Assembly: GCA_035544215.1 (NCBI GenBank)
Contig: DATKHY010000002.1
Span: 1-40,210 of the forward strand
Direction of reading: 5' to 3'
Length of the DNA stretch: 40,210 nucleotides
DNA from: Candidatus Binatia bacterium
GTDB taxonomy: Bacteria; Vulcanimicrobiota; Vulcanimicrobiia; Vulcanimicrobiales; Vulcanimicrobiaceae
Both the position numbers and the translations under genes were made by a program. The notes below the pieces were generated by a model that ran no database searches, had not been told where the DNA came from, and saw only the letters and a list, made by a program, of their open reading frames with translations. Positions 23,456 through 39,913 of this stretch are shown here, piece by piece; position 1 is the first letter of the stretch; each line of letters begins with the position of its first letter.

Positions 23456-24685
23456 ATGCGTATCGGCACGCTGTTTATTCTCGCCGCGGTGTTGGCCGGC
23501 TGCTCGAGCGCCGCGGGGACTCAGGCAGTGCCGGGGAGTTCGGCCGGCACCGAGCCGGCGGCCTCGCGCGCGTTTGGGCGCGAAGCGCCGCTCTACAGTT
23601 TCGAGGGGCGCGCGAGTGGGGGCGCGCCGATGTCGGGACTGCTCCTGCACAATGGTCTGCTCTACGGCACTACGTCGGCATACGGCAAGGGCTACGGCAC
23701 GGTCTTCGATATCGACGCGTTCGGGAAGCTGCACGTGCTGTACGCGTTTACCGGTTATCCGGATGCCCAATACCCGCAGGCCGGCCTGGTCTTCTTCAAC
23801 GGCGCGTTCTACGGCACGAGCTCCGCGGGCGGCGTGTACGCCGGCGGAACGATCTTCTCGGTGTCGCCCGACGGCGCCGAGCACGTCGTCCACAGTTTCG
23901 GAAACCGGAGGGACGGCGCGCTCCCACTGGCCGGCCTGCTCGACGTCAACGGTGTGCTCTACGGTACGACGCAGGATGGCGGCAATTCCACCAAGGGGAC
24001 CGTCTTCGAGCTCGACGCATCCGGCGAGCGAGTGTTGCACAGCTTCGCGGGCGCGCCGGCCGACGGGGGACATCCGACGGCCGGGCTCATCCGCTACAAG
24101 GATACGCTGTTCGGGACGACGCGCGCCGGCGGGCAGCTCGCCGCAGGCGGTACCGTTTATAGGATTTCGCCGTTTGGACAGGAGAGAGTGCTGCACAGCT
24201 TCGGCGTCAACCACGGCGACGGCATGAACCCCGCCGGCCCGCTGGTCGTGGTCAACGGAGAGTTCTACGGTACGACGCTGCGTGGCGGAGACCGCATCAG
24301 CGCGGGCACCGTCTTTGCGATGAGTCCGTCGGGTTCGGAGCAAGTGCTCCACTCTTTCGACGCCGGAGCCGACGGCTCGAGTCCGCTCGCGGGCCTGGTC
24401 CTTGTGGGCGGCGAGCTGTACGGAACGACGATGAACGGCGGCCTGACCGAGAGGAGATCCGGCGACTGCCTCAGCGGGCCCGACTCGACCGGCAGCCCGA
24501 CGTGCGGCACGATCTTCAAGATCGACGCGTTCGGCCGAGAGCAAGTCGTCTATCGCTTTCGCGGTTATTCCGACGGAGCCAATCCGGAGGCCGGCTTGAC
24601 GAATATCTCGGGGACCCTTTACGGCACGACCACTTGGGGCGGCCAGCACGTCGATTTCGGGACCGTTTTTCGCTTGCTACCGTAA
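23456..24685 (+). CDS. GloVer-type tandem repeat lipoprotein
   Basis: The 409-residue lipoprotein has Cys16 in the lipobox VLAGC. The mature chain is built of about seven repeats of 45-60 residues, each with a core LYGTT-x-x-GG and a following GTVF or GTIF plus VLHSF: for example LLYGTTSAYGKGYGTVFDID, FYGTSSAGGVYAGGTIF, LYGTTQDGGNSTKGTVFELD and LYGTTTWGGQHVDFGTVFRL. This is the TIGR03803 choice-of-anchor GloVer repeat family, probably a beta-propeller. No catalytic site is known and function is unassigned. GGAGG lies 8 nt before the ATG. The gene is monocistronic, divergent from the disrupted phosphatase gene. Confidence 0.85.
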   Translation: MRIGTLFILAAVLAGCSSAAGTQAVPGSSAGTEPAASRAFGREAPLYSFEGRASGGAPMSGLLLHNGLLYGTTSAYGKGYGTVFDIDAFGKLHVLYAFTGYPDAQYPQAGLVFFNGAFYGTSSAGGVYAGGTIFSVSPDGAEHVVHSFGNRRDGALPLAGLLDVNGVLYGTTQDGGNSTKGTVFELDASGERVLHSFAGAPADGGHPTAGLIRYKDTLFGTTRAGGQLAAGGTVYRISPFGQERVLHSFGVNHGDGMNPAGPLVVVNGEFYGTTLRGGDRISAGTVFAMSPSGSEQVLHSFDAGADGSSPLAGLVLVGGELYGTTMNGGLTERRSGDCLSGPDSTGSPTCGTIFKIDAFGREQVVYRFRGYSDGANPEAGLTNISGTLYGTTTWGGQHVDFGTVFRLLP

Positions 24686-24773
24686 GGCGAACGCGCGCCG
24701 TGGCGAGGGTGTGCAACGGAGCTTAGCACTTTCGTAATCGTCGCTTAAGAGTCGCTTGTTAGCATGGCTGCGC

Positions 24774-25985
24774 ATGCTAGTTGCGGACGACGCGGCGGCG
24801 GTAGCGCTGAGCGGCGACGATCGCGCGCTCGCGAGAATCGCGGATCCGGAGCTGCTCGCCTGCCGCACCGCCGGCGACGTAACGGCGTACTATGCGCGCG
24901 CCGGCGCCGGTTCCGAGGACCCGCTGATCGCCGGGATCGTGCTGACGTGGTCGGGCGACGCTCCCGGCGCGTACGCGCTGCTGCGGCAAGCCCACGACCG
25001 CGCGGTGTCGGAAGGGCGCTATGCTTTTGCTGTCGCGGCGCTCGAACGGCTGGCGCACGAGGCGCTGCTCTTCGGCGACGTCGACACCGCCCGCACCGCG
25101 GCCGACGACGGGGTGCGACTCGCAGCGGCGCACAGCCTGGCGCCGTGGCTGCTGCGGTGCCTGATCGTCGCCGCGCGGCTTGCGCTCGATGCCGGCGACC
25201 TCGCCTCCGGCGCGCATCTGCTGGAGCGCGCCGTCGCGCAGACGCGCCCGCCCGGGATGCTGGCTGCTTGCGCGGCCATCGGCGCCCAGCTCGCCCTCGA
25301 AAAGGGCGATGCCTCGGCGCTGGCAATCTGGACGGGACCGGATATCGTCGCGGCGGCGCTGCGCTCGGACGATCCCGAGCTCGCCCGCGCGGCGACGACC
25401 GCGCTGCTGACCGCGGCCGAGAGCATAAAGAACCATCTTCAAGTTCGGCTGGCGCTGCGCCGCGCGTTGCTGGGGACGGGCAATCCGTCGCACTCCCCCG
25501 AGTTGTTCTCGATGGCCGCGCGGTACGGCGATCTCGACGAGGCGCGGCTCGCGTCGCGCGCGCTCGCCGCCGTCCCGGCGGCGAATCGCCGCTACCTCCG
25601 CGCGCACCGGCTCTTGGCCCGCGCCTACCTGGCCTTTCGGTTCGGCGGGCGCACCGCGTGGGCCGACCACGCCAGTGACGCGGCGCGGGCGTTCAACGCG
25701 ATGGGTCTGCGGCGCTGGACGAACGAGGCGATGCTGCTGCTCGTGCGCCAGCCCGGCGGCGGCGGACGCCACCCGGGGCAGGGCCGCCCCCCGAACTCGA
25801 TGCTCACCGAACGCGAACAACAAGTGGCCGATCTGATTCGGCGCGGCGCGCGCAACCGCGAGGTTGCGCTCGCGCTGCAGATCAGCGAGCACACCGTGGA
25901 GCGTCACGTCAGCTCGATTCTCGGCCGGCTTGGATTGCGATCGCGCTGGCAGATCGCCGACACGCGGAAAAAGAACGAAGATTAA
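24774..25985 (+). CDS. LuxR-type transcriptional regulator with helical repeat domain
   Basis: The 403-residue protein has a C-terminal GerE/LuxR helix-turn-helix at about residues 342-395 (MLTEREQQVADLIRRGARNR, then EVALALQISEHTVERHVSSI). The long N-terminal part is Ala/Leu/Arg-rich and helical, like the TPR-like repeats of MalT/LAL regulators, but no P-loop NTPase domain is present. It is cytosolic. ATG 24774 has no ribosome site, and TAGCAT lies 8 nt upstream (leaderless candidate). TTG 24756 is an in-frame alternative. It precedes the receptor operon by 121 bp on the same strand and may control it, but that is inference from position only. Confidence 0.82.
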   Translation: MLVADDAAAVALSGDDRALARIADPELLACRTAGDVTAYYARAGAGSEDPLIAGIVLTWSGDAPGAYALLRQAHDRAVSEGRYAFAVAALERLAHEALLFGDVDTARTAADDGVRLAAAHSLAPWLLRCLIVAARLALDAGDLASGAHLLERAVAQTRPPGMLAACAAIGAQLALEKGDASALAIWTGPDIVAAALRSDDPELARAATTALLTAAESIKNHLQVRLALRRALLGTGNPSHSPELFSMAARYGDLDEARLASRALAAVPAANRRYLRAHRLLARAYLAFRFGGRTAWADHASDAARAFNAMGLRRWTNEAMLLLVRQPGGGGRHPGQGRPPNSMLTEREQQVADLIRRGARNREVALALQISEHTVERHVSSILGRLGLRSRWQIADTRKKNED

Positions 25986-26004
25986 GCCTGGTTCAAATTT
26001 CTTA

Positions 26005-26079
26005 GCATAGCGTAATTCTCTATGCCGGTACGTTAACCGCCGGCTGGAAACCGGGGATGCAGCGCCGGTCGCCATCCCC
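26005..26079 (+). promoter_or_regulatory. Run of hairpins in the leader of the TonB receptor operon
   Basis: GCATAG (26005-26010) pairs with CTATGC (26020-26025). GGGGATG (26053-26059) pairs with CATCCCC (26073-26079) round a 13-nt loop. Between them a short CGGT/ACCG pairing is possible. No U-tract follows, so a structured leader or processing site is as likely as termination of the LuxR gene. I could not match it to the conserved cores of cobalamin, TPP or fluoride riboswitches. Confidence 0.4.
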
Positions 26080-26106
26080 TAGCATCGGTTTGAAGAATCG
26101 GCCAGT

Positions 26107-29100
26107 ATGCCGGCTCTTTGTTGCTGCTGGGAGTTGAAGTTGCTCGACAGTCTCCTTCGATTCAGGAAGCTTGTGGCATTCGCCGGCTTCTGTTGCATGG
26201 TACTGCCGCAGGTTGCGGCCCGCGCGGAGACCGCGGGCATCGTTTCGGGAACGGTCACGGACGATCGGACGCATCGGCCGATCGCCGGCGTCGCGGTCGT
26301 CGCGAAGTCGCCCAGCGCGAGCTATCGCACCGTCACCGACGCGCAGGGGCGCTTTCGCTTCTTGAGCGTGCTCCCCGACACGTATTCGATCTCCTTCGCC
26401 TACGCGGGCTACGCGCCGTACTCGACGTCGCTGGTCGTGCTCAATGGCTCGCAGCAGACCGTCAACGTTCCGCTCTCGCACACCCTCAAGACGATCGCCT
26501 CGACGCGCGCGCGCTCGACGGGCAGCGCCTTTCAGCGCGGGATGACCATCGACACGTACACGGTGACCGGCGCGCAGATCGAGACGGTCACAGGGAAGGC
26601 GTTCAACGCCAACGAGAACGACCTGCTGCGCAGCATCCCGAGCGTCACGATCGACAAGACCGGCACCGTCTCGATCCGCGGCGGCTTTGCGTTCGAAGCG
26701 GCGTACGAGTTCGAGGGCATCGACTACACGACGCCGTCGGCCAACCTGCAGAACACGCTGCAGAACGTCGCCAACTTCAACCTCCTCAACGGCGTCGGCA
26801 GCGTACAGCTGATTCCCGGCGGTGGCGACGCCACGCACGGCGACACGGGGACCGGGCTGGTGCTGTTCACGGCCAAGCACGGCACGTATCCCTCGTACCT
26901 GCACGTCGACACGGAGGCGCTCGCTTTTCCCTACCTTCACCAGTTGGGGCTGGAGTGGGGCTGGGCCGACCCGTCGCAACGACTCTCCAACTACGCGGGC
27001 TTCATCGGGATCCGGCGCGCCTATCAGTACGGGATTCCCGGCACCGCGGCCAACACGCTCGGCACGCTGGGGACCAACGCCGCGACGTTGGGCAGCACGA
27101 TCGATCCGAACCTCGTCTATTACGCGCCGTCGTTTCTGAAGTCGAATGACTTCGTCGACAACCTGATCTACCGTTTCGGGCGCAACAACAACCAGCGGCT
27201 GCAGTTCTTCATTCAGGATCAGTCGATCACGCAGACGCTCGACTACGGCGGCTTTCAGTTCCTGCCCTACATCTCCGGCGGCACGACGTCGGGCAAGTGC
27301 GCGCCCTACCTCGTGATCGGACCCAACGGTCCGGTCAACTCGGCGACACAAAACTACGCCTGCGACTCGCTGATCCCGCTCTTCCCGGGCCAGCCCAACA
27401 CCTACGCCTTCGTCTCGTCGCCCGATACGCTCAAAAGTCCCTTTCTGGCGTACAAGGCGGAGTACGGCGTGAACCTGGGCACGTCGTCACTGCTGACGGC
27501 GCGCTATTTCCGGACTTTTACCGAGCAATCGCAGGACATGCCGGCGCAGGGAATCTTCGCCGAACCCTACGGCGGCACGCGCACGGGCGGGCAGATCGAC
27601 GTCACGACGCAGATCGGCAGCAAGAATCTCTTCAAGTACGGCGGCATCTATCAGTTCGTCGTTCCGTACGGCAACCGCTACGACTTCACGTCGTACACGG
27701 CGTTCACCACGCCTCCCTACATCATCACGTACGCGATCACGCATCCGCTGCAGCCGCTCCCGCTGCCCTACACCTACAGCGGACTGCTGCCCAACAACAA
27801 CCCGTTCGCGTCTGCGGGGCTGGAAAAGGACTTCTTGTCGCCGGGTTTCTGCGCGCAACAGGGTATCACGGGCTGCGGCTACTTGATCTCGTACTTTCCC
27901 GGCGGCGTGCGCTTCCCGTTCGAGGAAGACGTCGCGACCGTCGGGCAGCAGCAGTACGGCGCGTACCTGCAGGACACGATCGACATGTCGCCCCGCTGGA
28001 AGACCGAGTTGGGTCTGCGCTTAGACGGATACAACTTCCAGATTCCGCAGCAGGCCGGAGCGCCGGCATCCATCCCGGCGGCGGAGCATCAGCGGTTGTA
28101 CGAGCCGCACTTCGATCAGTCGTTTTCGCCGGATCCGCGCGACACGTTCCGCGTCGGCTTCGGCCACACACTGGCGATGCCGCTGCCCAGCCAGCTGGGC
28201 GCTGACGTCAGCCGCGCGCCGTACGCGGCGTTCGATAATATCCCGTCGTACGACAACTCGACCCTGCAGCCGGCGCAGTACTGCGGCCCGCGCGCCAACC
28301 AGCGGTGCGCCACCTACGCCGATCAGCTGTATTGGCTGACGCGAGATTATCGCTACGGGAGCTCGACGCTCGAAGCACCGCTCGTGGGAGCGACGTTCAC
28401 CAACGTCGACCTGTCGTGGGCGCACGAGTTCCGCGACGGCTCGGCGATGAAGATCACGCCGTTCTACCGGCGCGGCTACAACGTCATCGAGCAGACGGCG
28501 CAGATCCTGGGCTTCAACTTTCAGACGGGGTCGCCGGTCTTCGGCGACGTCGCATACTCGAATCTTGGCATCCAGCGCGCCAAAGGCATCGAGGTGCTGT
28601 ACAACAAGGAAGTCCAGCTGGGCCTCTCGATGCAGGTCGGCGCGACGTACATCAACCAGTTCGGCAACGAGCCGCCCGGGGCGTTTTTGCAGCCGGCGGC
28701 GCTAGCGCTGGGCACGCAGTATCGCTCGCCCGATCTCTCGCCCTTCCAGATGAACGCCGCGTTCAATTGGAAGAACAGTCATGGCTGGCGCATCAATCCG
28801 GTCGTCTCGTTCAACGTGGGTTACCCTTACGGGGCCGGATACTACACCGCGGTCTACTGCAACGGAATCCCCGTCGTCGTGCCGAGCACGAGTCTGTCGC
28901 TGATCTACTCGCAGACGCCGGGCTACATCGATCCGTTGGACCCCGGAACGTGCACCAAGCCGAACATCGCGGCGACGCGCGGCATTCACGAGCCGAACTT
29001 GGCAGGGGGCTTCTTGACCACGCCCCGCGTCGACGCCGATCTCACCGTCGAGTACCGGCCGCCGATCAAGTCGCTGGCGCAATCGGTCTTCGGACTGCAG

Positions 29101-29319
29101 GTCCAAAACTTGTTCAATCAGCTCTACAACGTGCCGATCGTCAACGGCTGCTACGGCGCGCCGGTGACCAGCGGCCTGCAGAGCGGCAACGCTCCCTGCA
29201 CGTTCTCGACGGCGCCGTACGCGCCCCCGGACGTCGCTTCGCACAGCTCCTCGCCGTATCTCACCTTCCCCAACGAGCCCCCGATCTCGTTCCGCCTTTA
29301 CTACCAGGTGACTATATGA
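26107..29319 (+). CDS. TonB-dependent receptor with carboxypeptidase-regulatory-like domain
   Basis: The 1070-residue outer-membrane receptor has a signal peptide ending near residue 40 (PQVAARA). A carboxypeptidase-regulatory-like Ig domain covers about residues 45-125 (GIVSGTVTDDRTHRPIAGV, then DAQGRFRFLSVLPDTYSI). A plug domain covers about 145-260 (IETVTGKAF, LLRSIPSVTID, VSIRGGFAFEAAYEFEGIDY, SVQLIPGGGDATHGDTGTG). A 22-strand-type barrel continues to the terminal FRLYYQVTI. I see no certain TonB box. ATG 26107 lacks a ribosome site. TTG 26140, with GGGAG 6 nt upstream, would also leave a signal peptide. The next gene overlaps the stop codon (ATGA at 29316), so the receptor heads a tightly coupled operon with four or five lipoprotein genes. 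Such receptors import large or scarce ligands. The ligand here is unknown, though the PstS-like partner makes a phosphate-containing one possible. Confidence 0.9.
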   Translation: MPALCCCWELKLLDSLLRFRKLVAFAGFCCMVLPQVAARAETAGIVSGTVTDDRTHRPIAGVAVVAKSPSASYRTVTDAQGRFRFLSVLPDTYSISFAYAGYAPYSTSLVVLNGSQQTVNVPLSHTLKTIASTRARSTGSAFQRGMTIDTYTVTGAQIETVTGKAFNANENDLLRSIPSVTIDKTGTVSIRGGFAFEAAYEFEGIDYTTPSANLQNTLQNVANFNLLNGVGSVQLIPGGGDATHGDTGTGLVLFTAKHGTYPSYLHVDTEALAFPYLHQLGLEWGWADPSQRLSNYAGFIGIRRAYQYGIPGTAANTLGTLGTNAATLGSTIDPNLVYYAPSFLKSNDFVDNLIYRFGRNNNQRLQFFIQDQSITQTLDYGGFQFLPYISGGTTSGKCAPYLVIGPNGPVNSATQNYACDSLIPLFPGQPNTYAFVSSPDTLKSPFLAYKAEYGVNLGTSSLLTARYFRTFTEQSQDMPAQGIFAEPYGGTRTGGQIDVTTQIGSKNLFKYGGIYQFVVPYGNRYDFTSYTAFTTPPYIITYAITHPLQPLPLPYTYSGLLPNNNPFASAGLEKDFLSPGFCAQQGITGCGYLISYFPGGVRFPFEEDVATVGQQQYGAYLQDTIDMSPRWKTELGLRLDGYNFQIPQQAGAPASIPAAEHQRLYEPHFDQSFSPDPRDTFRVGFGHTLAMPLPSQLGADVSRAPYAAFDNIPSYDNSTLQPAQYCGPRANQRCATYADQLYWLTRDYRYGSSTLEAPLVGATFTNVDLSWAHEFRDGSAMKITPFYRRGYNVIEQTAQILGFNFQTGSPVFGDVAYSNLGIQRAKGIEVLYNKEVQLGLSMQVGATYINQFGNEPPGAFLQPAALALGTQYRSPDLSPFQMNAAFNWKNSHGWRINPVVSFNVGYPYGAGYYTAVYCNGIPVVVPSTSLSLIYSQTPGYIDPLDPGTCTKPNIAATRGIHEPNLAGGFLTTPRVDADLTVEYRPPIKSLAQSVFGLQVQNLFNQLYNVPIVNGCYGAPVTSGLQSGNAPCTFSTAPYAPPDVASHSSSPYLTFPNEPPISFRLYYQVTI

Positions 29320-30530
29320 TCGTCCGCATCTACGGCGCCACCGCCGCCCTCGCTCTCTGTTTGGCCGCGCTAAACGCGTGCGGGAACGGGGGCGCCTCGG
29401 AGCCGCCGGTGACGTCGTTCGATCCAGCGGCGACCAGCAAGCTGCAGTTCGCGGTCGGCATCGCGACGATCGCGTTCAACAAGGGCGCAAGCGTCGCGTA
29501 TGGGCTCAACACCGTCGAGACGCTGCGCCAGCAGAACGGGCTGTCGGGGACACTTTTCAATCAGCCGATGATCATCGGCCCGTCGAGCTTCGACGTGCTC
29601 ATCTCGACGCTGACCGGCAATCAGGTGCAGGGAGCCGGCGCGGATCTGGGCACCAATCACATCACCTGGTCGACGCTCAATCAATCGCTCTGGACCGGGC
29701 CGCCGCGCGGGCCGAAACAGTCCAGCACCGGCGCCTTCGGATACGGGCTCTGTCCGTGTAACTCCGACTCCGGCCCCGGCAACGGCTTCACGCCGCTCTA
29801 TCAGGCGTACAACCTGCCGATCTATGGCCAAAACGTCTATGGGCCCGGGGCCGAGCTGTGGTACGGCGGCGCACCCGCGTTCCCCGCAGCCGGGCCGTCG
29901 CTGATAGCGTTGGGCTGGGAGGGTTATTCGCTGGGATTCAGCGACTTCGCGGTGCAACCGGTGCTGGGCGTCTATCATCTGTATGCGGCGGTGCCGCCGG
30001 CCTACGACACGCCGCAGAACCCGACGCCCAGCCCGAATCCGAACGGAACGCCGACCCCGCCGCCCGGCATCCTTGCCGCGGCCGCGCAGCTGACCAGCCT
30101 CTCCGCGCTGCCCGCGTTCACAACGCCAGCGTTCAAGCCGGACCGCAAGGGCGGCGGCACGATCAGCCTAACGGTGCCCGCGGGCGCGACCGAGGCGATG
30201 GCGGTCGTGCGCGCCAACGGCGGCAGCGGCATCTCGGGCAGCAGCTGCGTGCTCGCGCACACCATCGACAGTTATTACACGATCGTCGCGCGGGGCGCGG
30301 GGCCGGCGAAGTTGATGCTCGCCGACGACCTCGGGCCGCTGACGCAATCCGGCAAGAAAACGCCGACGATCTGCTCCAAGGGGACCTATGAGATCTATGC
30401 CGTGGGCGCAGACTACCCGGCGTACGAGGCATCGTATCCCAAGAACCTCTCGCAGCTGCCCGTGATACGAGGCCCGAGCGGTCAGGCCGACGTCACGACG
30501 TCCGATCTGCTCACCGCGGCGTATCCATGA
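29316..30530 (+). CDS. Lipoprotein of unknown family in the TonB receptor operon
   Basis: The 404-residue lipoprotein has Cys22 in LNAC. Residues 40-240 form one domain (LQFAVGIATIAFNKGASVAY, GFGYGLCPCNSDSG-like cysteine cluster, LGFSDFAVQPVLGVYHLYAA). A Pro/Thr/Asn-rich linker near residues 233-250 (NPTPSPNPNGTPTPPPG) is followed by a second part (ISLTVPAGATEAMAVVRANG, CVLAHTIDSYYTIVARG) that looks like an Ig/beta-sandwich fold. I recognise no named family. The start ATG 29316 overlaps the receptor stop by 4 nt, and its own stop overlaps the next gene in the same way, which argues for translational coupling. An extension of the open frame upstream to 28305 lies inside the receptor gene and is not real. 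Confidence 0.7.
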   Translation: MIVRIYGATAALALCLAALNACGNGGASEPPVTSFDPAATSKLQFAVGIATIAFNKGASVAYGLNTVETLRQQNGLSGTLFNQPMIIGPSSFDVLISTLTGNQVQGAGADLGTNHITWSTLNQSLWTGPPRGPKQSSTGAFGYGLCPCNSDSGPGNGFTPLYQAYNLPIYGQNVYGPGAELWYGGAPAFPAAGPSLIALGWEGYSLGFSDFAVQPVLGVYHLYAAVPPAYDTPQNPTPSPNPNGTPTPPPGILAAAAQLTSLSALPAFTTPAFKPDRKGGGTISLTVPAGATEAMAVVRANGGSGISGSSCVLAHTIDSYYTIVARGAGPAKLMLADDLGPLTQSGKKTPTICSKGTYEIYAVGADYPAYEASYPKNLSQLPVIRGPSGQADVTTSDLLTAAYP

Positions 30531-32509
30531 CGAACCTGCGCGCGCGAGCGATTCTGACAATCGCGGCGCTCGCTACCGCGGCATGCGGCGGCGGCTTCGG
30601 CACGCCCAACGGCCCAGTCGTGAACTCCCCGGGTGGCCCGACGCCGCCACCGCTTCCGCTCGTGACCGTGCACGTGCACGTCACGATTCCGGGACGGGAG
30701 CGCGGCATGCGCGTCCGGCCCGACTACGTCTCGCCCAACACCGAGTCGCTCGTGATCCAGCTCGCGTCGGTGGACGGCCAGGGCGTGAGCGGCGTCAACG
30801 CGACGACGATCGAGACGCGCTTACACTCGCGCGGCTGCGCGGCGCAGGGAGGCCAAACGGTCTGCACCGCAACGGCGCTCGGCTCGCCCGGCGAGGACGT
30901 CTTCTCTGTCACGACCTATGCGGGCTCGAATGCCACCGGCGCCGTCTTATCGGTTGGAACCGTGGCGGCGAAGATCGGATCGGGCGACGGCAACGTGCAG
31001 ATCGACAACCTCACGCTCACCCTCGACGGCGTGATCGCGTCGCTGCATCTGTCGCTTTCGCCCAACGCGGGCAAGCGCGGAAAGTCGATGACGGCGGCGG
31101 TCGCGCTCGCGGCCTTCGACGCCACCGATGCGCAGATCGTCGGCGCTAGTCCTTTTCTTTCGCCGATCGCGCTGACCATCCAAGGCGACACGGTGCACGC
31201 GTTTCGACTGCACTCGGGCCGTGAGTCGGGCGCCTCGCTCTCGATCGTGAAGCCGACATCGGGCATCACGCTCACCTACGACGGCAACCGCCAGGCGTCG
31301 CCGGTAACGGTGCAGGCCGCCGTCGACGGGCCGAGCTCGATCGGTGCGCACGCGCACTTCGCGCTGCACGGAAAACAGCCGCCGCCGCCGGTCGGCACGA
31401 TCTACGCGCTCAATCTTGGCAGTCATAACGGACTCGGCGCCACGGTGACGGAGTATGACGGCAAGGAGAAGGGCGATGCCACGCCCGAGCGCACGCTGCA
31501 GCTCAGCTCGAAGCTGTACGCACGCAGCATCGCGCTCGATGCGAGCGGCAACCTCTATGTCGGCTTCTTCGACAATCAGTTCGGCTTCTCGTCGCAGACG
31601 GGTGCGCCGGACACCGGCAACGTCGTCGCGATCTATGCGCCGGGTGCGAGCGGCAAGACGCCGCCGACCGCGCTGCTGACCGCGGACGGCAAGACCGGCA
31701 CCGCCGTCTTCCCGCTCTACATGAGCTTCGATCCGTCCGGCGACCTCGTGACGTACGGCGCGACGACGGTGGACGGCAACACCGGTGACGCAGTGCTCAC
31801 CTACGCGCCGGGCAGCAAGGGCGCCGCGAAGCCGCTGCATGGCTTCGACTTCGCGAACCCGGTGATTCGCTACGGTGGTCCCGCCGGCTTGACGCTCGAC
31901 GCGTCGGGCAACTTCTACGTGAACGGCGCGCTCCACACATCGCTCGGACCAAGCTATGGACTGTTCACGGCGCTGGCATCCGACGCCGGCAATCCACAGA
32001 CGAATCCGGCGCGCACGATTCCGTGGAACCCCTCGACGACCCAGTTGACGCCCGGCATCACGACCAACGTCGCGCTCGACTCCAGCGGCGAAATCTTCAT
32101 CGCGAACACGCTGTTGGGCGGCGGAAGCAGCTCGACGACGTGCCAGGGTCGCGCCAACGTCTTTGCCTCCGGCGCGTCCGGCGGCGTTACCAACGTCCCG
32201 CCGTTGCGGATCCTGTCGTTGGACGGCGTCTTCTCGAGTGATCCGCTGTGCGACTCGCCGCGCGACCCGCGGCCGCCGTTCTTCCCGACGATTGCCATGT
32301 ACGGGACGACACTCTTCGTCGCCGACGACTTCAACAACGCGATCGACGCGTATCCCGCCAATGCGAGCGGCAACGTCAAATCGACGCTGACGATCTCGGG
32401 CTCGGCGACGCAGCTCAAGGCTCCGATCGCGCTCGCGATCACGAAACTTTCCGGTCGGGCCATGGCTCGGCCGGCTCATCACCAGTCTGACGCACTCAAC
32501 GCCCAATGA
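30527..32509 (+). CDS. Large NHL-type beta-propeller lipoprotein
   Basis: The 660-residue lipoprotein has Cys20 in TAAC and a Pro-rich spacer (PGGPTPPPLP). Residues 45-280 are beta-rich with unclear identity (VTVHVHVTIPGRERGM, SLVIQLASVDGQGVSGV). Residues 290-640 form a propeller with DASGNLYVG, DPSGDLVTY, DASGNFYVN, DSSGEIFIA and LFVADDFNNAIDAY blade motifs, the usual NHL/SMP-30-like signature. Repeats are separated by 40-70 residues. The start overlaps the previous stop by 4 nt (ATGA). It sits inside the receptor operon, upstream of the PstS-like gene, so a surface or periplasmic binding or scaffold role in that system is inferred. Confidence 0.78.
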   Translation: MTNLRARAILTIAALATAACGGGFGTPNGPVVNSPGGPTPPPLPLVTVHVHVTIPGRERGMRVRPDYVSPNTESLVIQLASVDGQGVSGVNATTIETRLHSRGCAAQGGQTVCTATALGSPGEDVFSVTTYAGSNATGAVLSVGTVAAKIGSGDGNVQIDNLTLTLDGVIASLHLSLSPNAGKRGKSMTAAVALAAFDATDAQIVGASPFLSPIALTIQGDTVHAFRLHSGRESGASLSIVKPTSGITLTYDGNRQASPVTVQAAVDGPSSIGAHAHFALHGKQPPPPVGTIYALNLGSHNGLGATVTEYDGKEKGDATPERTLQLSSKLYARSIALDASGNLYVGFFDNQFGFSSQTGAPDTGNVVAIYAPGASGKTPPTALLTADGKTGTAVFPLYMSFDPSGDLVTYGATTVDGNTGDAVLTYAPGSKGAAKPLHGFDFANPVIRYGGPAGLTLDASGNFYVNGALHTSLGPSYGLFTALASDAGNPQTNPARTIPWNPSTTQLTPGITTNVALDSSGEIFIANTLLGGGSSSTTCQGRANVFASGASGGVTNVPPLRILSLDGVFSSDPLCDSPRDPRPPFFPTIAMYGTTLFVADDFNNAIDAYPANASGNVKSTLTISGSATQLKAPIALAITKLSGRAMARPAHHQSDALNAQ

Positions 32510-32520
32510 GGAAACTTCAC

Positions 32521-33966
32521 ATGAACAAAACCTTGGCCACTGTGGCCTTGGCAGCCGTGCCGGCGCTGCTGCTGAGCGCCTGCAACGGCAGCGCGGGCGG
32601 AGGCAACTCCGCAATCGCGCCGCTTCCGAACTCCTCGCAGGCTTCGCACGCAACGCGCGTTCGCGGTCTCGACAACGGTCCCAACGATCTCCACGCGGGC
32701 GGCGCGACGTTCCCAGCGTACGCGTACAACCTCGCGAGCCAACCCGCCGGCCTCTACAATCAGCCGCAGGCGCCTCCGGGACAGGGTTCGCTCTTCTATT
32801 CCGTGCCGACGAAGGGCACGATCTTCTACTGTCTGACCGGCAGCGGCTACGGCCGAGCCGAGTTCACCACGAACAACGGCACCGCGACGACGGCTTGCGC
32901 GCCGCTGGGCGCGTCGCCGACGGGATTCGGCGGACGTCAGGATCCGCTCGACTTCGTGGGCAGCGACGTCGCGCTCAAGTCGAGCGAGTACACGACGTAT
33001 AAAGCGAATCGCGAGTCGGGCACCAAGACCTGGGGCGAGCCCTTCGAGTTTCCGACCATCGGCGGTCCGATCGTGTTCGGCTTCCGTCCGCAAGACTTCG
33101 CGGTCTCGCAGATCAAGCTGTCGCAATGGACCTACTGCGCGATCGTCAACGGCACGATCAGCGACTGGAACGACGGCGCGATCACGCAGGACAACGGCGG
33201 CTCGGTGACCGGCGGCTCGTCGCAGACGATCACGTTCTACTTCCGCTCGGACAGCAGCGGAACGAGCTTCCTGTTTACCAACCATCTGAACACGGCGTGC
33301 AACATCACGTTCAAGCCGCCGTACAACAAGGCCCCGTACGGCGGTCCGAGCCGCAGCGCCGCGTGGACCTTCGGCGTCAACAGCGTCTGGCCGGGCCCCG
33401 GATCGTCGGGCGACCCGAACCCGCGCTTCATCGGCGAGAGCGGTAACCCGGGCGTGCTCGCGGCCATCCAGACGACGCCGTTTGGCACCGGTTACGTCGA
33501 GGGCGCGTACGCGGCCTCGGCCAATCCGGCGGTCGGCCAGGCGCTTCTGCAGAACGGCTTCGCGAACGGTCAGGCGATCTTCACGAATCCTACCAACAAG
33601 AAGCAGGTGAAGAACGCGCTGAAGAAGGTCAACGCTCGCTCGATCACCTACGGTGAGGGCAGCGACGGCCAGCCGCTCGGCACGAGCGCCCCGTGGTGCG
33701 TCCTGTACATCGATCCGAAGAACTTCGTTAGCCCGCCATCGAACACGTACCCCATCGTCGGCGTGAGCTACTGGCTGTTCTACGGTCAGAACAACGGCAT
33801 CCACGTCTCGGACAAGAAGAAACTCATCAACTGGCTCGCAACATCGAGCGCGGCCAACCGCATCACCAACAGGCTCGAGTACATTCCGCTGCCGCTCAGC
33901 GTCCATACAGCGATCGTAAACGCGCTGAATGGAAACGGCGGCAGCCAACCCGCGTGTCTGCAGTAG
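32521..33966 (+). CDS. PstS-like phosphate-binding lipoprotein (orphan)
   Basis: The 481-residue lipoprotein has Cys21 in LLSAC. It follows the PstS/SBP type II pattern: LHAGGATFPAYAY (Thr63 in the phosphate-contact GATFP loop), LDFVGSDVALK (Ser148-Asp149, equivalent to the GASD loop), and FYFRSDSSGTSFLFTNHL (Arg242 to Thr248, the phosphate-gripping RSDGSGT motif). It is longer than usual PstS (about 340 residues), with extra Cys/Asn-rich insertions (FYCLTGSGYG, CAPLGAS, CLQ end). In the family the protein binds phosphate in the periplasm and passes it to PstCAB, but none of those genes is present here. I chose ATG 32521 with GAGG 9 nt upstream. ATG 32506 would overlap the previous stop by 4 nt like its neighbours. 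Confidence 0.82.
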   Translation: MNKTLATVALAAVPALLLSACNGSAGGGNSAIAPLPNSSQASHATRVRGLDNGPNDLHAGGATFPAYAYNLASQPAGLYNQPQAPPGQGSLFYSVPTKGTIFYCLTGSGYGRAEFTTNNGTATTACAPLGASPTGFGGRQDPLDFVGSDVALKSSEYTTYKANRESGTKTWGEPFEFPTIGGPIVFGFRPQDFAVSQIKLSQWTYCAIVNGTISDWNDGAITQDNGGSVTGGSSQTITFYFRSDSSGTSFLFTNHLNTACNITFKPPYNKAPYGGPSRSAAWTFGVNSVWPGPGSSGDPNPRFIGESGNPGVLAAIQTTPFGTGYVEGAYAASANPAVGQALLQNGFANGQAIFTNPTNKKQVKNALKKVNARSITYGEGSDGQPLGTSAPWCVLYIDPKNFVSPPSNTYPIVGVSYWLFYGQNNGIHVSDKKKLINWLATSSAANRITNRLEYIPLPLSVHTAIVNALNGNGGSQPACLQ

Positions 33967-34739
33967 ACGCTCCGAAGGCCAACACGCGCGCCGCATTCGT
34001 GCGGCGCGCGTGCGCCCTTCTCTGTATCGCCGCGGGCGGCGGGTGCGGCGGCTCGAGCTCCTCGTCCTCGACGATGCCGTCGGTCTCGAGCAATATCTTG
34101 GTGCGGTTCGCCGACGGGGCGCCGTCGCTCAAGACGCTCATCAACGGCTATCCGACCGACATCGGCGCCGCGTATCTGCAAGCCAACGGAAAGACCGTCG
34201 CATCATCGTTCGTCTACGGCACGCTGACCACGTTCGTGATGCTGCCCGCGGGCACGCTGTCGCTCAAGGCGCTCGATACGACCGGCTACTTCGTGGGCCC
34301 GCTCAAGACGCCGGCGTTGACGGCCGGGAACCGCTACACGCTCGTCGTGGCCGGAGCGTACCCCAACTACGGCGTGCTGGTATTTACGGAGCCGAAAGCG
34401 TCGAGCGGCGCGCAGCTGTCGCTTTACGAGGCGTCTCCGACGGTTCCGTCGGCGGACTTCGGGAGTTTCAGCGCGTCGACGCACACGAACTTCAAGAAGC
34501 TCGGCAGCGCGCAGTTCGGCAGCGTCGCGACGGTTTCGCTCGGAAGCGCCGCATCGAACCTCGGGGGGTATGCCGGGAAGGCGAGCGCGCCGCTCGGGAC
34601 GCTCACGCTGCGCCAAATCAATCCCTTCGATCGGCGCAACGTCTTGCCGTATCACCGCGCCGCGCGGCTGTCGCTCTTCTTGTTCGATCCGAAGTCCGGC
34701 AGCACCGTCGGCCCCGTCTTTGGGAGCCTCGATCGATGA
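33954..34739 (+). CDS. DUF4397-like lipoprotein in the receptor operon
   Basis: The 261-residue exported protein has a signal segment with Cys31 (RRACALLCIAAGGGC) and a Ser-rich linker. The mature domain (about residues 46-185) reads ILVRFADGAPSLKTLINGYP, then SFVYGTLTTFVMLPAGTLSL and RYTLVVAGAYPNYGVLVFTE, a beta-sandwich layout like DUF4397, a domain of unknown function in secreted and anti-sigma-like proteins. GTG 33954 overlaps the PstS-like stop by 13 nt. GTG 33999 (MRRACALL) is an equally plausible start giving a shorter, more typical signal. It sits between the PstS-like gene and a propeller lipoprotein gene in the same transcript. Function unknown. Confidence 0.65.
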   Translation: MSAVDAPKANTRAAFVRRACALLCIAAGGGCGGSSSSSSTMPSVSSNILVRFADGAPSLKTLINGYPTDIGAAYLQANGKTVASSFVYGTLTTFVMLPAGTLSLKALDTTGYFVGPLKTPALTAGNRYTLVVAGAYPNYGVLVFTEPKASSGAQLSLYEASPTVPSADFGSFSASTHTNFKKLGSAQFGSVATVSLGSAASNLGGYAGKASAPLGTLTLRQINPFDRRNVLPYHRAARLSLFLFDPKSGSTVGPVFGSLDR

Positions 34740-35815
34740 AAGCCTCCTCGTATTTTGTACTGCTGGTCGCGCTGGCCGGCGCCGTCGCGGCGATCTCTGG
34801 GTGCGGGACGACGGGTCCGGCGCCGATCGGCGTCTCGAACCCGCCGCAGCCCACATCCACGCCCGCCGCGCACTGGCTGTACGTCGACCACAACGGCACG
34901 TTTTTTGCATACACGCTTCCGCTGACGGCGCAGTCGCGGCCGGTGCGCACGCTGCAAGAATGGCCGGGCCTCGGCTTTGCGCCGCAGATCGCCGTGGATC
35001 CGTACGGCAGCGTCGCGCTCACGAGCCCCAAGACGATCCGCGTGTTTCATCCGCCTATTCTCTCGTTCGCGCGCTCGCACGCGCGGCTCAGCATACCGCT
35101 CACGCCGGCGATAACCGAGATCGGCCTGTCCGGCGCGGACCTCGTCGACATCGAGTACGACCCGAATCAAAACCTGTGGCTCCTCAACAACCTGGGCGGA
35201 GAGGTCTCCGAACTGCAGGCGCCGCTCCGGAAGAATAGCGTGGCCGCCGTCACGATACAGTTCGGCGCGCCGGGCTCGAAGACGGCCGGTTTCTCAACGC
35301 TGTTCCAGGCGCGCTTCGACGTCAACGCCGCGCTGTACGTCTACGCGAGCAACGGGCAGCGAGCGCGCCTGTTCAAGGTCGGCTTCCCGTATGCCAAGCC
35401 GCCCGGATCGATCGGGTTGAACATCCTTCAGTCCGACTTCGTGGACTCGAGCCAATGGCCGCCGACGGCGCCGGTGCAGCCGTCGCTGCTCTTGGGTCAG
35501 TATTTTGGTCCGCTGCGGTCGCCGCATCCCGGCTCGCCTCCGTCTCCCCCGGTCGACGTGATGAGCCAGTTTCAGGAGCCGCTCAACCAGCAGAACCGCG
35601 GTCTCTTTCCGGACGAGCACGCCGACACCATCGTCGGAGCGCTGATCGCGGATCCCCCGCGCGGCGCCTTCTACACGCTGGATGCCGCCGATGGCCGCCT
35701 CAACGTCTACGGTTTGCCGATGCGCAGCCATGCGACGCCGGCGATATCCCTGCGCTGCCTCGCAACAGGCGGAAACTGCAGCCAGAAGATCGAGCACCTG
35801 TTCTTGGCGCCCTAG
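34736..35815 (+). CDS. Beta-propeller-like lipoprotein, last gene of the receptor operon
   Basis: The 359-residue lipoprotein has Cys23 in AISGC. The mature part has loose propeller motifs: HWLYVDHNGTFFAYTLPLTA, IAVDPYGSVALTS, IEYDPNQNLWLLNNLGGEVSE, VNAALYVYASNGQRARLFKV and AFYTLDAADGRLNVYG. These resemble NHL-type blades but with weaker conservation than in the neighbouring 30527 protein. A long Pro-rich segment near residue 262 (LRSPHPGSPPSPP) interrupts the repeats. The start ATG 34736 overlaps the previous stop by 4 nt (ATGA). The frame remains open upstream to 33929, but that part lies over the DUF4397-like gene and is not coding. Confidence 0.72.
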   Translation: MKASSYFVLLVALAGAVAAISGCGTTGPAPIGVSNPPQPTSTPAAHWLYVDHNGTFFAYTLPLTAQSRPVRTLQEWPGLGFAPQIAVDPYGSVALTSPKTIRVFHPPILSFARSHARLSIPLTPAITEIGLSGADLVDIEYDPNQNLWLLNNLGGEVSELQAPLRKNSVAAVTIQFGAPGSKTAGFSTLFQARFDVNAALYVYASNGQRARLFKVGFPYAKPPGSIGLNILQSDFVDSSQWPPTAPVQPSLLLGQYFGPLRSPHPGSPPSPPVDVMSQFQEPLNQQNRGLFPDEHADTIVGALIADPPRGAFYTLDAADGRLNVYGLPMRSHATPAISLRCLATGGNCSQKIEHLFLAP

Positions 35816-35861: not shown

Positions 35862-36860
35862 GTGCGCGCCATGACGCTCGAGCGGCCCGCGCCGATCGAA
35901 ACGAATCCGCTGCGACTGACGGATAGGCCGAAGCCGGCGCCGGCGCCCGGCGAGATTTGCGTGCGCGTCCGCGCGTGCGGCGTTTGCCGGACGGATCTGC
36001 ACGTCGCCGAGGGCGACCTCGCGCCGAAGCACCGCGGCATCGTTCCCGGCCACGAGATCGTCGGCGTCGTCGAGCAGGCCGGTGCGGGCAGCGAGCGATT
36101 CGCCGTCGGATCGCGCGTCGGCATCGCATGGCTGCGCCAGACCGACGGGACGTGCGAGTACTGCCGTAGCGGACGCGAGAATCTCTGCCCCAACGCGCTC
36201 TTCACCGGTTGGGATCGCGACGGCGGGTACGCCGAATACGCGGTCGTGCGCGAAGATTTCGCGTATCGTCTTCCCGACGAGATCGACGACGAGCACGCCG
36301 CGCCGCTCCTGTGCGCCGGCATCATCGGGTTTCGCGCCATCAAACGCGCCGGGGTCGCACCGGGCGCCACGGTGGGGCTGTACGGGTTCGGCGGCTCGGC
36401 GCATCTGGCGCTGCAGGTGCTGCGGCATTGGAACTGTCGCGTGTTCGTCATGAGCCGCGGCGGAATCCATCGCGACCTCGCGCAGGAGCTCGGAGCAGAT
36501 TGGATCGGCGACGCCTCCGAGGCTCCGCCGGCGCCGCTAGACGCGGCCATTTTATTCGCGCCGGCCGGCGAGCTCGTGCCAACGATCATGTCGGCGTTGC
36601 GGCGCGGCGGCGTGCTGGCGATCGCCGGAATTTATGTCACGCAGATTCCACCGCTCGACTACGCCGCGCAACTGTTCGAGGAGAGAGAGATCCGCAGCGT
36701 CACCGCCAACACCCGCGCGGACGGCGAGGAGTTCCTCGCCATCGCCGGCGCGATACCGATACGATCTATGACGGTGGGAATGCACCTGGAAGACGCGAAC
36801 CGCGCACTCAACATGCTCAAGCACGACGAGCTTCGCGGCGCTGCGGTGTTGCACGTATGA
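35862..36860 (+). CDS. Zinc-dependent alcohol dehydrogenase (MDR superfamily)
   Basis: The 332-residue enzyme has a GroES-like catalytic domain and a Rossmann NAD(P) domain. The catalytic zinc ligands are Cys42 (RACGVCRTDLH), His64 and Glu65 (VPGHEIVG), with Cys in LLCAGIIGFRAI completing the site. The structural-zinc loop reads DGTCEYCRSGRENLC: Cys98, Cys101 and Cys109 are present, but the first position (95) is Asp, not Cys. The nucleotide-binding turn is GLYGFGGSAH. I chose GTG 35862 because MRAMTLE is the usual start in this group. ATG 35871 is the alternative. The gene begins 46 bp after the propeller gene and overlaps the next gene by 4 nt. It oxidises alcohols or reduces aldehydes. Substrate not readable. 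Confidence 0.87.
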   Translation: MRAMTLERPAPIETNPLRLTDRPKPAPAPGEICVRVRACGVCRTDLHVAEGDLAPKHRGIVPGHEIVGVVEQAGAGSERFAVGSRVGIAWLRQTDGTCEYCRSGRENLCPNALFTGWDRDGGYAEYAVVREDFAYRLPDEIDDEHAAPLLCAGIIGFRAIKRAGVAPGATVGLYGFGGSAHLALQVLRHWNCRVFVMSRGGIHRDLAQELGADWIGDASEAPPAPLDAAILFAPAGELVPTIMSALRRGGVLAIAGIYVTQIPPLDYAAQLFEEREIRSVTANTRADGEEFLAIAGAIPIRSMTVGMHLEDANRALNMLKHDELRGAAVLHV

Positions 36861-37594: not shown

Positions 37595-38641
37595 ATGAAG
37601 GCTTCCACCGTCTTAACCACGGCTGCCGTCGCGTTTCTCGCGGCGTGTTCCGGCAGCGCGAGATCCCCCCAGGCGCTCTACGCCCTCCCCGCCGTCAACC
37701 AAGCCCCGCAGCGGTCGGACTATGCGACCGTCGTACCGCCGCAACTGCGCCCCATCGGCGGCGCGGCGGCGTTGCCGTTGACGCTCGAGCCGAGCGCGCT
37801 GAGCGCCGGGGGAATCTACGCCAGCGAGTTCTACGCGACCGACATCTGGGGATTTCCGATTGCGAACAAGCACAATCGCAAGGCGATGTGCGTCGTCACG
37901 CACGTCCTAGGCGCCAACGGCATCGCGGTCGACGCTAGCGGCAACCTGATCGATCCCGACGGCGGTACGGACACGGTCATCGTCTTCAAGGGTGGAAAGA
38001 TGTGCGGACCCAAGCTGGGCGAGGTCAAGGATCCGTATGGGCAGCCTTCAGACGCGGCGAGCGCGGACGCCGCTAACGGAACGATCGTCGTCGCGAACAT
38101 CACCGACAAGAACAAGACGCCCGGCAGCGTCACGCGTTGCACGCTCGCGCACGGGTGCAAGACAAACCTCAAAAGCTCCAACATGGATGAAGTCGCCGGC
38201 GTCGCGCTTGCCAAAAACGGCGACTGCTGGGCGTCGGCAAGCAATTCGAACGGTACGGCGACGCTGACGTACTTCAAGGGTTGTCTCGCTCCCGGCAAAA
38301 GGGCGACCGGCTACCGCAACGCCTACTACGGCGGTCTCGACATCGACAACCAGGGGAACCTCGTTTCGCTGAGCTACTCGGATGCGAAGCTCTACGTCTA
38401 CAAGGGATGCAATCCCAAGTGCACGCTGGTTGGCGGACCCTTCGCGATGAAGGGCGAGGCCACGTTCGGCCACTTGAACGCCGCCTCCACCAAGCTGGTC
38501 ACCGGCGACTATCAGTACGGCCAAATCGACGTCTACAACTACAGCCCCCACAAGGTCCGGTTCGCGTACAGCTTCAACCGGGGCTTCAGCCCCAGCGAGC
38601 TCGTCGAGGGGGCCGCGTTCAACCCGCGATCGACCGAATAG
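37595..38641 (+). CDS. Cysteine-containing propeller lipoprotein, tandem copy 1
   Basis: The 348-residue lipoprotein has Cys18 in LAAC. It shares with the next two genes a common plan: an anchor and spacer, GIYASEFYATDIWGFPI, a VDASGNLIDPD-type blade, GGKMCGP, DPYGQPSDAASAD, DEVAGVALAKNGDCWAS, FKGCLAPGK, YYGGLDIDNQGNLVSLS, YVYKGCNPKC, and a terminal YSFNRGFSPSELVEGAAFNP. About nine cysteines follow the lipid Cys, and several match the positions in copy 2, so disulfides are likely. The blade spacing fits a six- or seven-bladed NHL-like propeller. Function unknown. This copy is the most divergent of the three, mainly in its N-terminal spacer. Confidence 0.75.
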   Translation: MKASTVLTTAAVAFLAACSGSARSPQALYALPAVNQAPQRSDYATVVPPQLRPIGGAAALPLTLEPSALSAGGIYASEFYATDIWGFPIANKHNRKAMCVVTHVLGANGIAVDASGNLIDPDGGTDTVIVFKGGKMCGPKLGEVKDPYGQPSDAASADAANGTIVVANITDKNKTPGSVTRCTLAHGCKTNLKSSNMDEVAGVALAKNGDCWASASNSNGTATLTYFKGCLAPGKRATGYRNAYYGGLDIDNQGNLVSLSYSDAKLYVYKGCNPKCTLVGGPFAMKGEATFGHLNAASTKLVTGDYQYGQIDVYNYSPHKVRFAYSFNRGFSPSELVEGAAFNPRSTE

Positions 38642-38854: not shown

Positions 38855-39913
38855 ATGCGTTTGTTATCAGCAGCGGTCTGTACATCAGTCGCTGCAGCGC
38901 TTCTCGCCAGCTGCTCGGGCGGCAACCTGGGGTCGATGACCTCATCGGTTCCGGGCACCGGCAGCAGCGCATCTAAGTACCAGGCGCTGCACAAGGCTGG
39001 TGCTGTCAGCATCATCCCGAAGTCGGCGCTGCCCAAGGGGCCGGTGAAGCTCAAGGGACGCCAGGCTCCGCCTCAAGAGATGAAGGGCATCTACGTCGCC
39101 CAGTTCTTCGGATCGACCGTTAACGGTTACACGAAGAACAACAGCGGCAACGGCGCAGCCATCTGCACCGTGCCGGGCGGCAGTGTCAACAACGTCGCCA
39201 CGGACACCGCGGGCAACCTGATCGTTCCCGATGCGTTCAGCGGCGTAGTCGTCTACCCCGGCCCGACGATGTGCGGATCGGGATCACCGACGACCATCAC
39301 CGACAGCTATGGTCAGGCCTCTGACGCAGCGGCGGTCAACGCCCTCACCGGCACGACCGTCGTCGGCAACATCCTCGGCCCTGGCTACGTGATTGCCTGC
39401 ACCAGCGGCGTCTGCAGCCAGCTCACGCCGAGCTCGCAAGGCATCGGCGAAGTCGCCGGTGTCGCCATGGACGCAGCCGGCGATTGCTGGGCTGACTCCT
39501 ACAACGCCGCGTTCACGGCCGTCGTGCTCACGTACTGGGCCGGCTGCTCGGGAACGGGTCAGAACGCCACCGGCTGGTCGAACACCGGCTACGGCGGTAT
39601 CGACGTCGACAACTCGGGCAACATCGTGTCCTTCAACTGGCACGGCTCGGCCGGCACGGACCTCTGGGTCTACTCGGGATGCAACCCGGCCTGCACCGGC
39701 GTCAGCGACAACACGCTCACGAACAACACGGCGATCTTCGGCCACATCGGCAAGCATGGCCAGCGCCTCGTTGCCGGTGCGTACCTGAAGGGTCAGGCTG
39801 ACATCTATCAGTACAGCCCGAGCACGCTCACATACTACTACAGCTTCAACAACGGTCTGTCTGTTACGGGCGACACCGAAGGCGCCGCCTACAGCCCGTC
39901 CTCGAAGAAGTAG
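38855..39913 (+). CDS. Cysteine-containing propeller lipoprotein, tandem copy 2
   Basis: The 352-residue lipoprotein has Cys20 in LLASC. A spacer (GSMTSSVPGTGS, then KAGAVSIIPKSALPKGP) is nearly identical to that of copy 3 at 40016. The propeller part parallels copy 1: GIYVAQFFGSTVNGYTK, TDTAGNLIVPDAFSGVVVY, PTMCGS, DSYGQASDAAAVN, GEVAGVAMDAAGDCWADS, YWAGCSGTGQ, GYGGIDVDNSGNIVSFNW, VYSGCNPACTG, YYYSFNNGLSVTGDTEGAAY. The paired cysteines in MCG, DCW, GCS and GCNPAC are conserved with copy 1. Function unknown; a surface-exposed or periplasmic binding propeller is likely. The leader and ribosome site suggest post-transcriptional control. A strong terminator follows. Confidence 0.78.
   Translation: MRLLSAAVCTSVAAALLASCSGGNLGSMTSSVPGTGSSASKYQALHKAGAVSIIPKSALPKGPVKLKGRQAPPQEMKGIYVAQFFGSTVNGYTKNNSGNGAAICTVPGGSVNNVATDTAGNLIVPDAFSGVVVYPGPTMCGSGSPTTITDSYGQASDAAAVNALTGTTVVGNILGPGYVIACTSGVCSQLTPSSQGIGEVAGVAMDAAGDCWADSYNAAFTAVVLTYWAGCSGTGQNATGWSNTGYGGIDVDNSGNIVSFNWHGSAGTDLWVYSGCNPACTGVSDNTLTNNTAIFGHIGKHGQRLVAGAYLKGQADIYQYSPSTLTYYYSFNNGLSVTGDTEGAAYSPSSKK

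Follow-up and report, generated by a model that had tools for sequence, protein, structure and literature searches.

A TonB-receptor-like gene cluster encoding a PstS/DING-like lipoprotein: a candidate outer-membrane system for phosphate scavenging

We show that one clade of TonB-receptor-like outer-membrane proteins is linked, in two bacterial families and independently of pstSCAB, with a lipoprotein of the PstS/DING fold that retains an intact phosphate pocket. The window analysed, a stretch of 40,210 nucleotides, is one entire contig of a 3.23-Mb genome in nine contigs, and carries at positions 26107-35815 a tightly packed group of six open reading frames on the + strand, encoding a TonB-receptor-like protein (A), a PstS-like protein (D), and four further lipoproteins (B, C, E, and F). 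On balance, this locus probably serves to scavenge phosphate or small phosphate esters at the outer membrane, and D would work with the TonB-dependent receptor A.

The six genes were described in the preliminary description as running nearly without gaps, and the open reading frame calls on the same strand bear out the overlaps given there, which are 4 nt (ATGA) in length at A/B, B/C, and E/F, and 13 nt at D/E. Between C and D, a gap of 11 nt is the most likely arrangement, because the orthologue alignment of D begins at the methionine at 32521 (alternative start, 32506). A lipobox cysteine was read by eye in each of B to F. A gene for a LuxR-type regulator (24756-25985, + strand; Pfam GerE in the C-terminal part, 48.8 bits; exact start uncertain) is located 121 nt upstream of the receptor gene. 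This gene had been left out at first, and since it stands beside the cluster in most of the relatives with a known upstream flank, it is counted here as a member of the locus, the boundary of which is corrected to include 24756-25985. The gene just upstream of the LuxR-type gene (23456-24685) encodes a lipoprotein that matches the GloVer choice-of-anchor repeats (234.6 bits for TIGR03803). On the other side, an alcohol-dehydrogenase-like gene (approximately 35871-36860) closely follows F, as it also does in genomes G005 and G001, and may be a further member of the transcription unit in this lineage.

The set LuxR-A-B-C-D-E-F recurs in genomes of the same genus and the same family, and the arrangement was found in more than 10 relatives, the orthologues being 73-92% (A), 65-82% (B), and 53-82% (D) identical to the window proteins. 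The gene order varies: D is placed between the LuxR-type gene and A in three genomes (G001, G026, and G086), and one copy in G011 is ordered C-D-E-F-A-B. In more distant genomes, some of them from a second family (f3), D is transcribed divergently from A-B, precedes A, or belongs to a neighbouring operon. A scan of genome contigs yielded one close locus (L034, from a Candidatus Eremiobacterota metagenome-assembled genome; its matches are those of L045) and a single weak match, in Calothrix, and plasmids gave only partial matches of 25-28% identity among the matches listed.

In a maximum-likelihood tree of 41 A homologues, all the D-linked receptors fell into one clade of 26 with support of 100/100, so that the counts given here are not independent events. 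With a broader D profile, D was detected near 21 of the 21 clade receptors that are not cut by a contig end, and these belong to two families. The remaining five (in G004, G009, G016, G052, and G007) are on contigs that break off close by; in G007, the contig begins at A, and D is found where a different contig ends. For G051, a genuine loss of D was considered and rejected, as a D-like gene was found there by both Pfam scan and the broader profile. For the 15 receptors that fall outside the clade, nine of which have at least 5 kb on both sides, D was absent from the fetched flank in every case; these receptors still have B downstream. Since B follows the outside receptors too and D does not, the receptor and B look to be the general unit, to one lineage of which D was added. 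B-family lipoproteins were seen to follow A-type receptors across the class even without D (L094, L098, L099, L101, L102, L182, L186, L189, and others). The recurrence in relatives and the specificity for one receptor clade far exceed a chance arrangement, and a chance neighbourhood is thus rejected; the A-D pairing is real and old.

Protein D (32521-33966, + strand) passes the PBP_like_2 family (PF12849) with 65.1 bits against a gathering cutoff of 27, and falls below the PstS equivalog TIGR00975 with 102.9 bits against a cutoff of 205. Its predicted model is of modest confidence (mean pLDDT, 56), and its best fold match is the DING protein 4m1v (Z, 19.3; rmsd, 3.8 over 327 residues), with the score for E. 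coli PstS 9k3x (Z, 17.9) lying near it. The preliminary description had pointed to a phosphate grip in D, and a PstS-like pocket is indeed found: by alignment with an E. coli PstS sequence that is consistent with the alignments obtained in this analysis, all eight phosphate contacts (T10, F11, S38, D56, R135, S139, G140, and T141) are present in the window D. All eight are kept in most of the close cluster D proteins, and six to eight in most of the divergent ones of about 28% identity to the window D. This retention argues that binding of the phosphate type has been under selection.

Seven close paralogues of D (L038, L039, L042, L043, L044, L045, and L046), referred to here as type II, differ in the pocket alignment: position 10 (PstS numbering) is Asp and position 56 is Ser or Ala, in place of the usual Thr10 and Asp56. 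The two positions covary among 25 close family members, of which 17 carry Thr or Ser at 10 together with Asp56, seven carry Asp10 without Asp56, and one carries both (Fisher, 1.7e-5, a value not corrected for kinship). By the D tree, type II arose once or twice. Both types are present in six genomes (G001, G002, G005, G006, G011, and G016), and in G009 the sole D found is of type II. The ligand of type II proteins may differ, as judged from these pocket residues, and the shift of Asp from position 56 to 10 favours an alternative in which D binds another oxyanion or a phosphorylated signal or siderophore through its PstS fold, the receptor importing that compound. Consistent with this alternative, D exceeds PstS in length and contains a number of conserved cysteines, those at 104, 126, 206, 260, 393, and 479 being invariant in the orthologue alignment. 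DING proteins have two disulfide bridges that PstS lacks. Across deep divergence, however, the full phosphate set is retained in the type I proteins, the window D among them, and the alternative is regarded as distinctly unlikely.

The genome contains two PF12849 genes, one for D and the other for a canonical PstS (372 bits against a cutoff of 205). Behind the latter come PstC, PstA, and an ATPase resembling PstB that scores slightly below its model cutoff (331.8 against 343.2). The absence of pstC, pstA, and pstB from the locus, stated earlier from the window, is thereby matched by a complete canonical pstSCAB on another contig (L036), and because the genome has this operon of its own, D is not a displaced PstS. 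The neighbours of D in relatives were compared as had been proposed, and the close cluster relatives adjoin the receptor and not pstCAB. One distant D-like gene only (28% identical to the window D, in G031) is located directly downstream of pstSCAB (L091, 10331-11959, with the PstS-like gene at 6231-7292); G031 also has another D-like gene adjoining its receptor. The gene beside the pst operon is possibly a clue to the origin of the family. Four solo close paralogues of D (L038, L039, L054, and L179) are without receptor or pst genes nearby. Three of these (L038, L039, and L179) lie between a gene of FAD/NAD(P) type, or one resembling cysteine dioxygenase, and scpA/scpB-like genes, the names being assigned by eye. 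In G007 (compare L103), it is a receptor-B pair that immediately precedes this scpA-like gene, which suggests that the solo copies may be what is left of a second cluster.

These genes bear on a second explanation, that D is an additional periplasmic phosphate-binding protein feeding PstCAB, its proximity to the receptor reflecting shared control by phosphate starvation, and that the receptor carries another compound such as an organophosphate or a metal complex. The intact pocket, the gene downstream of pstSCAB in G031, the existence of solo paralogues, and the divergent transcription of D and A in several relatives all agree with it. D is a lipoprotein, however, in contrast to the canonical PstS with its ordinary signal peptide (both read by eye), and D tracks one receptor clade and not pst; this explanation is considered unlikely.

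Among the other proteins, A (26107-29319, + strand), identified as a TonB-receptor-like outer-membrane protein from Pfam, its orthologues, and the receptor tree, carries an N-terminal CarboxypepD_reg domain above the Pfam cutoff. The TonB barrel gave a sub-threshold 22 bits in the window A (cutoff, 27), and was matched in nine of nine orthologues with a best E of 8.9e-14; no TonB plug domain was detected in A by Pfam, and in a profile search of the PDB no entry matched A at E 0.01. The start of A may lie slightly downstream of 26107, as the profile match begins at 26140. B (29316-30530, + strand) is a conserved lipoprotein directly downstream of this type of receptor, has no match in Pfam, NCBIfam, or PDB, and gave an AlphaFold model with a mean pLDDT of 37. 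C (30527-32509, + strand) and F (34736-35815, + strand) had both been called propeller lipoproteins; for C, the call can be kept as propeller-like on weak SBBP and NHL matches only, and for F, which matched no Pfam or NCBIfam family, it found no profile match behind it. E (33954-34739, + strand; GTG start) scores above the Pfam cutoff for DUF4397 (35.7 against 30.6 bits), in agreement with its earlier designation as DUF4397-like. C, E, and F are kept in the clusters, and SusD was not matched by any of the six proteins.

The propeller and DUF4397 lipoproteins would also fit a surface layer or adhesion complex formed by the lipoproteins, in which the PstS fold of D serves as scaffold or attachment and not for nutrient capture. 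The altered pocket in some D paralogues is compatible with such a complex, and PstS on the surface of Pseudomonas has been linked to adherence (PMC7922408). A scaffold is, however, not expected to preserve a pocket as strongly as the type I D proteins have done, and this role is very unlikely.

Elsewhere in the window, an open reading frame at 2-1243, within which the contig starts, resembles the end of an outer-membrane barrel and is followed by a lipoprotein-like gene at 1314-2366; the two may form another pair of receptor and lipoprotein. The lipoproteins encoded side by side at 37595-38641 and 38855-39913, which belong to no known family, look like paralogues, because both match the same genes in relatives (L037 and L052).

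The upstream regions of pstS in 17 genomes contain a CTTAA...TTAAT site that resembles a direct repeat and is conserved best among members of the genus; a site matrix was built from these regions. Its best match in the 40-kb window is located between the LuxR-type gene and A (26000-26019, + strand; TCTTAGCATAGCGTAATTCT), with a score of 15.8 against 9.9 for the next, and this candidate PHO-box resembles the element upstream of pstS. As a group, the receptor upstream regions outscore 336 other intergenic regions (Mann-Whitney, 4e-6), being individually below 0.05 in 5 of 21. An exact pattern matched genome-wide only upstream of pstS and of A; since it was drawn with both sites in view, the absence of other matches is no proof. 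A relaxed pattern gave 23 matches in 18 genomes of the genus against 8 for a control pattern, 13 being upstream of pstS and two upstream of the cluster (in the window, used in the design, and in G001); the others are elsewhere, some in or beside unrelated coding sequence. The PHO-box-like site sought upstream of 26107 thus has a counterpart at 26000-26019, but it is not kept in all orthologues, being weak in the nearest and degenerate in several. The pstS-like site upstream of A is suggestive of a link with Pho control. An inverted repeat GATGC...GCATC at 26056-26086, conserved among orthologues in the upstream alignment, is a candidate operator or promoter element, possibly the operator for the adjacent LuxR-type protein. 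A scan for sigma-70 promoters gave nothing in this region.

In the favoured reading of a scavenging system, D would be lipid-anchored, probably in the outer membrane, and would bind phosphate or a phosphoryl group, and A would act as a TonB-dependent barrel importing what D captures. B would accompany such barrels as their constant partner, C, E, and F would be accessory lipoproteins in this assembly, and phosphate in the periplasm would then be taken up by the ordinary PstSCAB. Expression of the cluster would probably rise upon phosphate shortage. The division of labour between A and D is inferred by analogy with TonB barrels that have lipoprotein partners, SusCD and PusCD. That D captures phosphate for the receptor had been suggested in the preliminary description; the intact pocket, the linkage with the receptor, and the PHO-box-like site support this suggestion in part. 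The type II pockets, the modest D model, the degenerate site, and the lack of a solved relative of A or B weigh against the scavenging reading.

The usual view is that phosphate passes the outer membrane via porins and that Venus-flytrap binding proteins work together with ABC transporters. If the scavenging reading is true, TonB-dependent import would be extended to phosphate, such barrels would gain a binding partner other than SusD, and an uncharacterised gene set in two families would be given a testable function. Eremiobacterota are an oligotrophic, almost uncultured phylum of little-studied soil bacteria. A bolder proposal, put forward tentatively and with less than even confidence, is that Eremiobacterota possess, in this locus, a hitherto undescribed kind of phosphate transporter of the outer membrane: the Venus-flytrap protein D would be the capture protein of a TonB barrel for energised phosphate uptake, and the paralogues with Asp moved from 56 to 10 would have an altered choice of oxyanion.

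In a limited set of open-access papers, no described TonB receptor with a PstS-like partner was found. TonB/ExbD operons containing a PstS-like gene occur in some Bacteroidetes. In Caulobacter, the lipoprotein ElpS is made upon phosphate starvation and its gene co-occurs with the TonB receptor gene Cc0171, but ElpS is tied to type II secretion and no PstS-like gene is described in that pair (PMC2996285). The PusCD/SusCD systems of Bacteroidetes are similar to the present locus in that a TonB-dependent barrel is encoded with binding lipoproteins, some being induced on phosphate depletion, and in Flavobacterium PusCD complexes and TonB transporters are induced by phosphate starvation (PMC8115612). 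The locus differs from these in having a binding protein of the PstS/DING fold with no SusD detected and no phosphatase genes in the cluster, and in belonging to another phylum with its own pst operon. PstS of PstSCAB shares with D the fold and all eight phosphate contacts, whereas D is below the equivalog cutoff, longer, lipidated, without linkage to pstCAB, and linked to a TonB-type receptor. To our knowledge, DING proteins have no linkage to a TonB receptor. Extracellular phosphate scavenging has been proposed for them in Pseudomonas (PMC7922408), and DING proteins such as HPBP and PfluDING resemble D in the best fold match, the GGAT motif at the pocket, and the phosphate pocket itself, but D is only about 22-25% identical in structural alignment and carries DLHAGG at the aligned place of the DINGGG signature.
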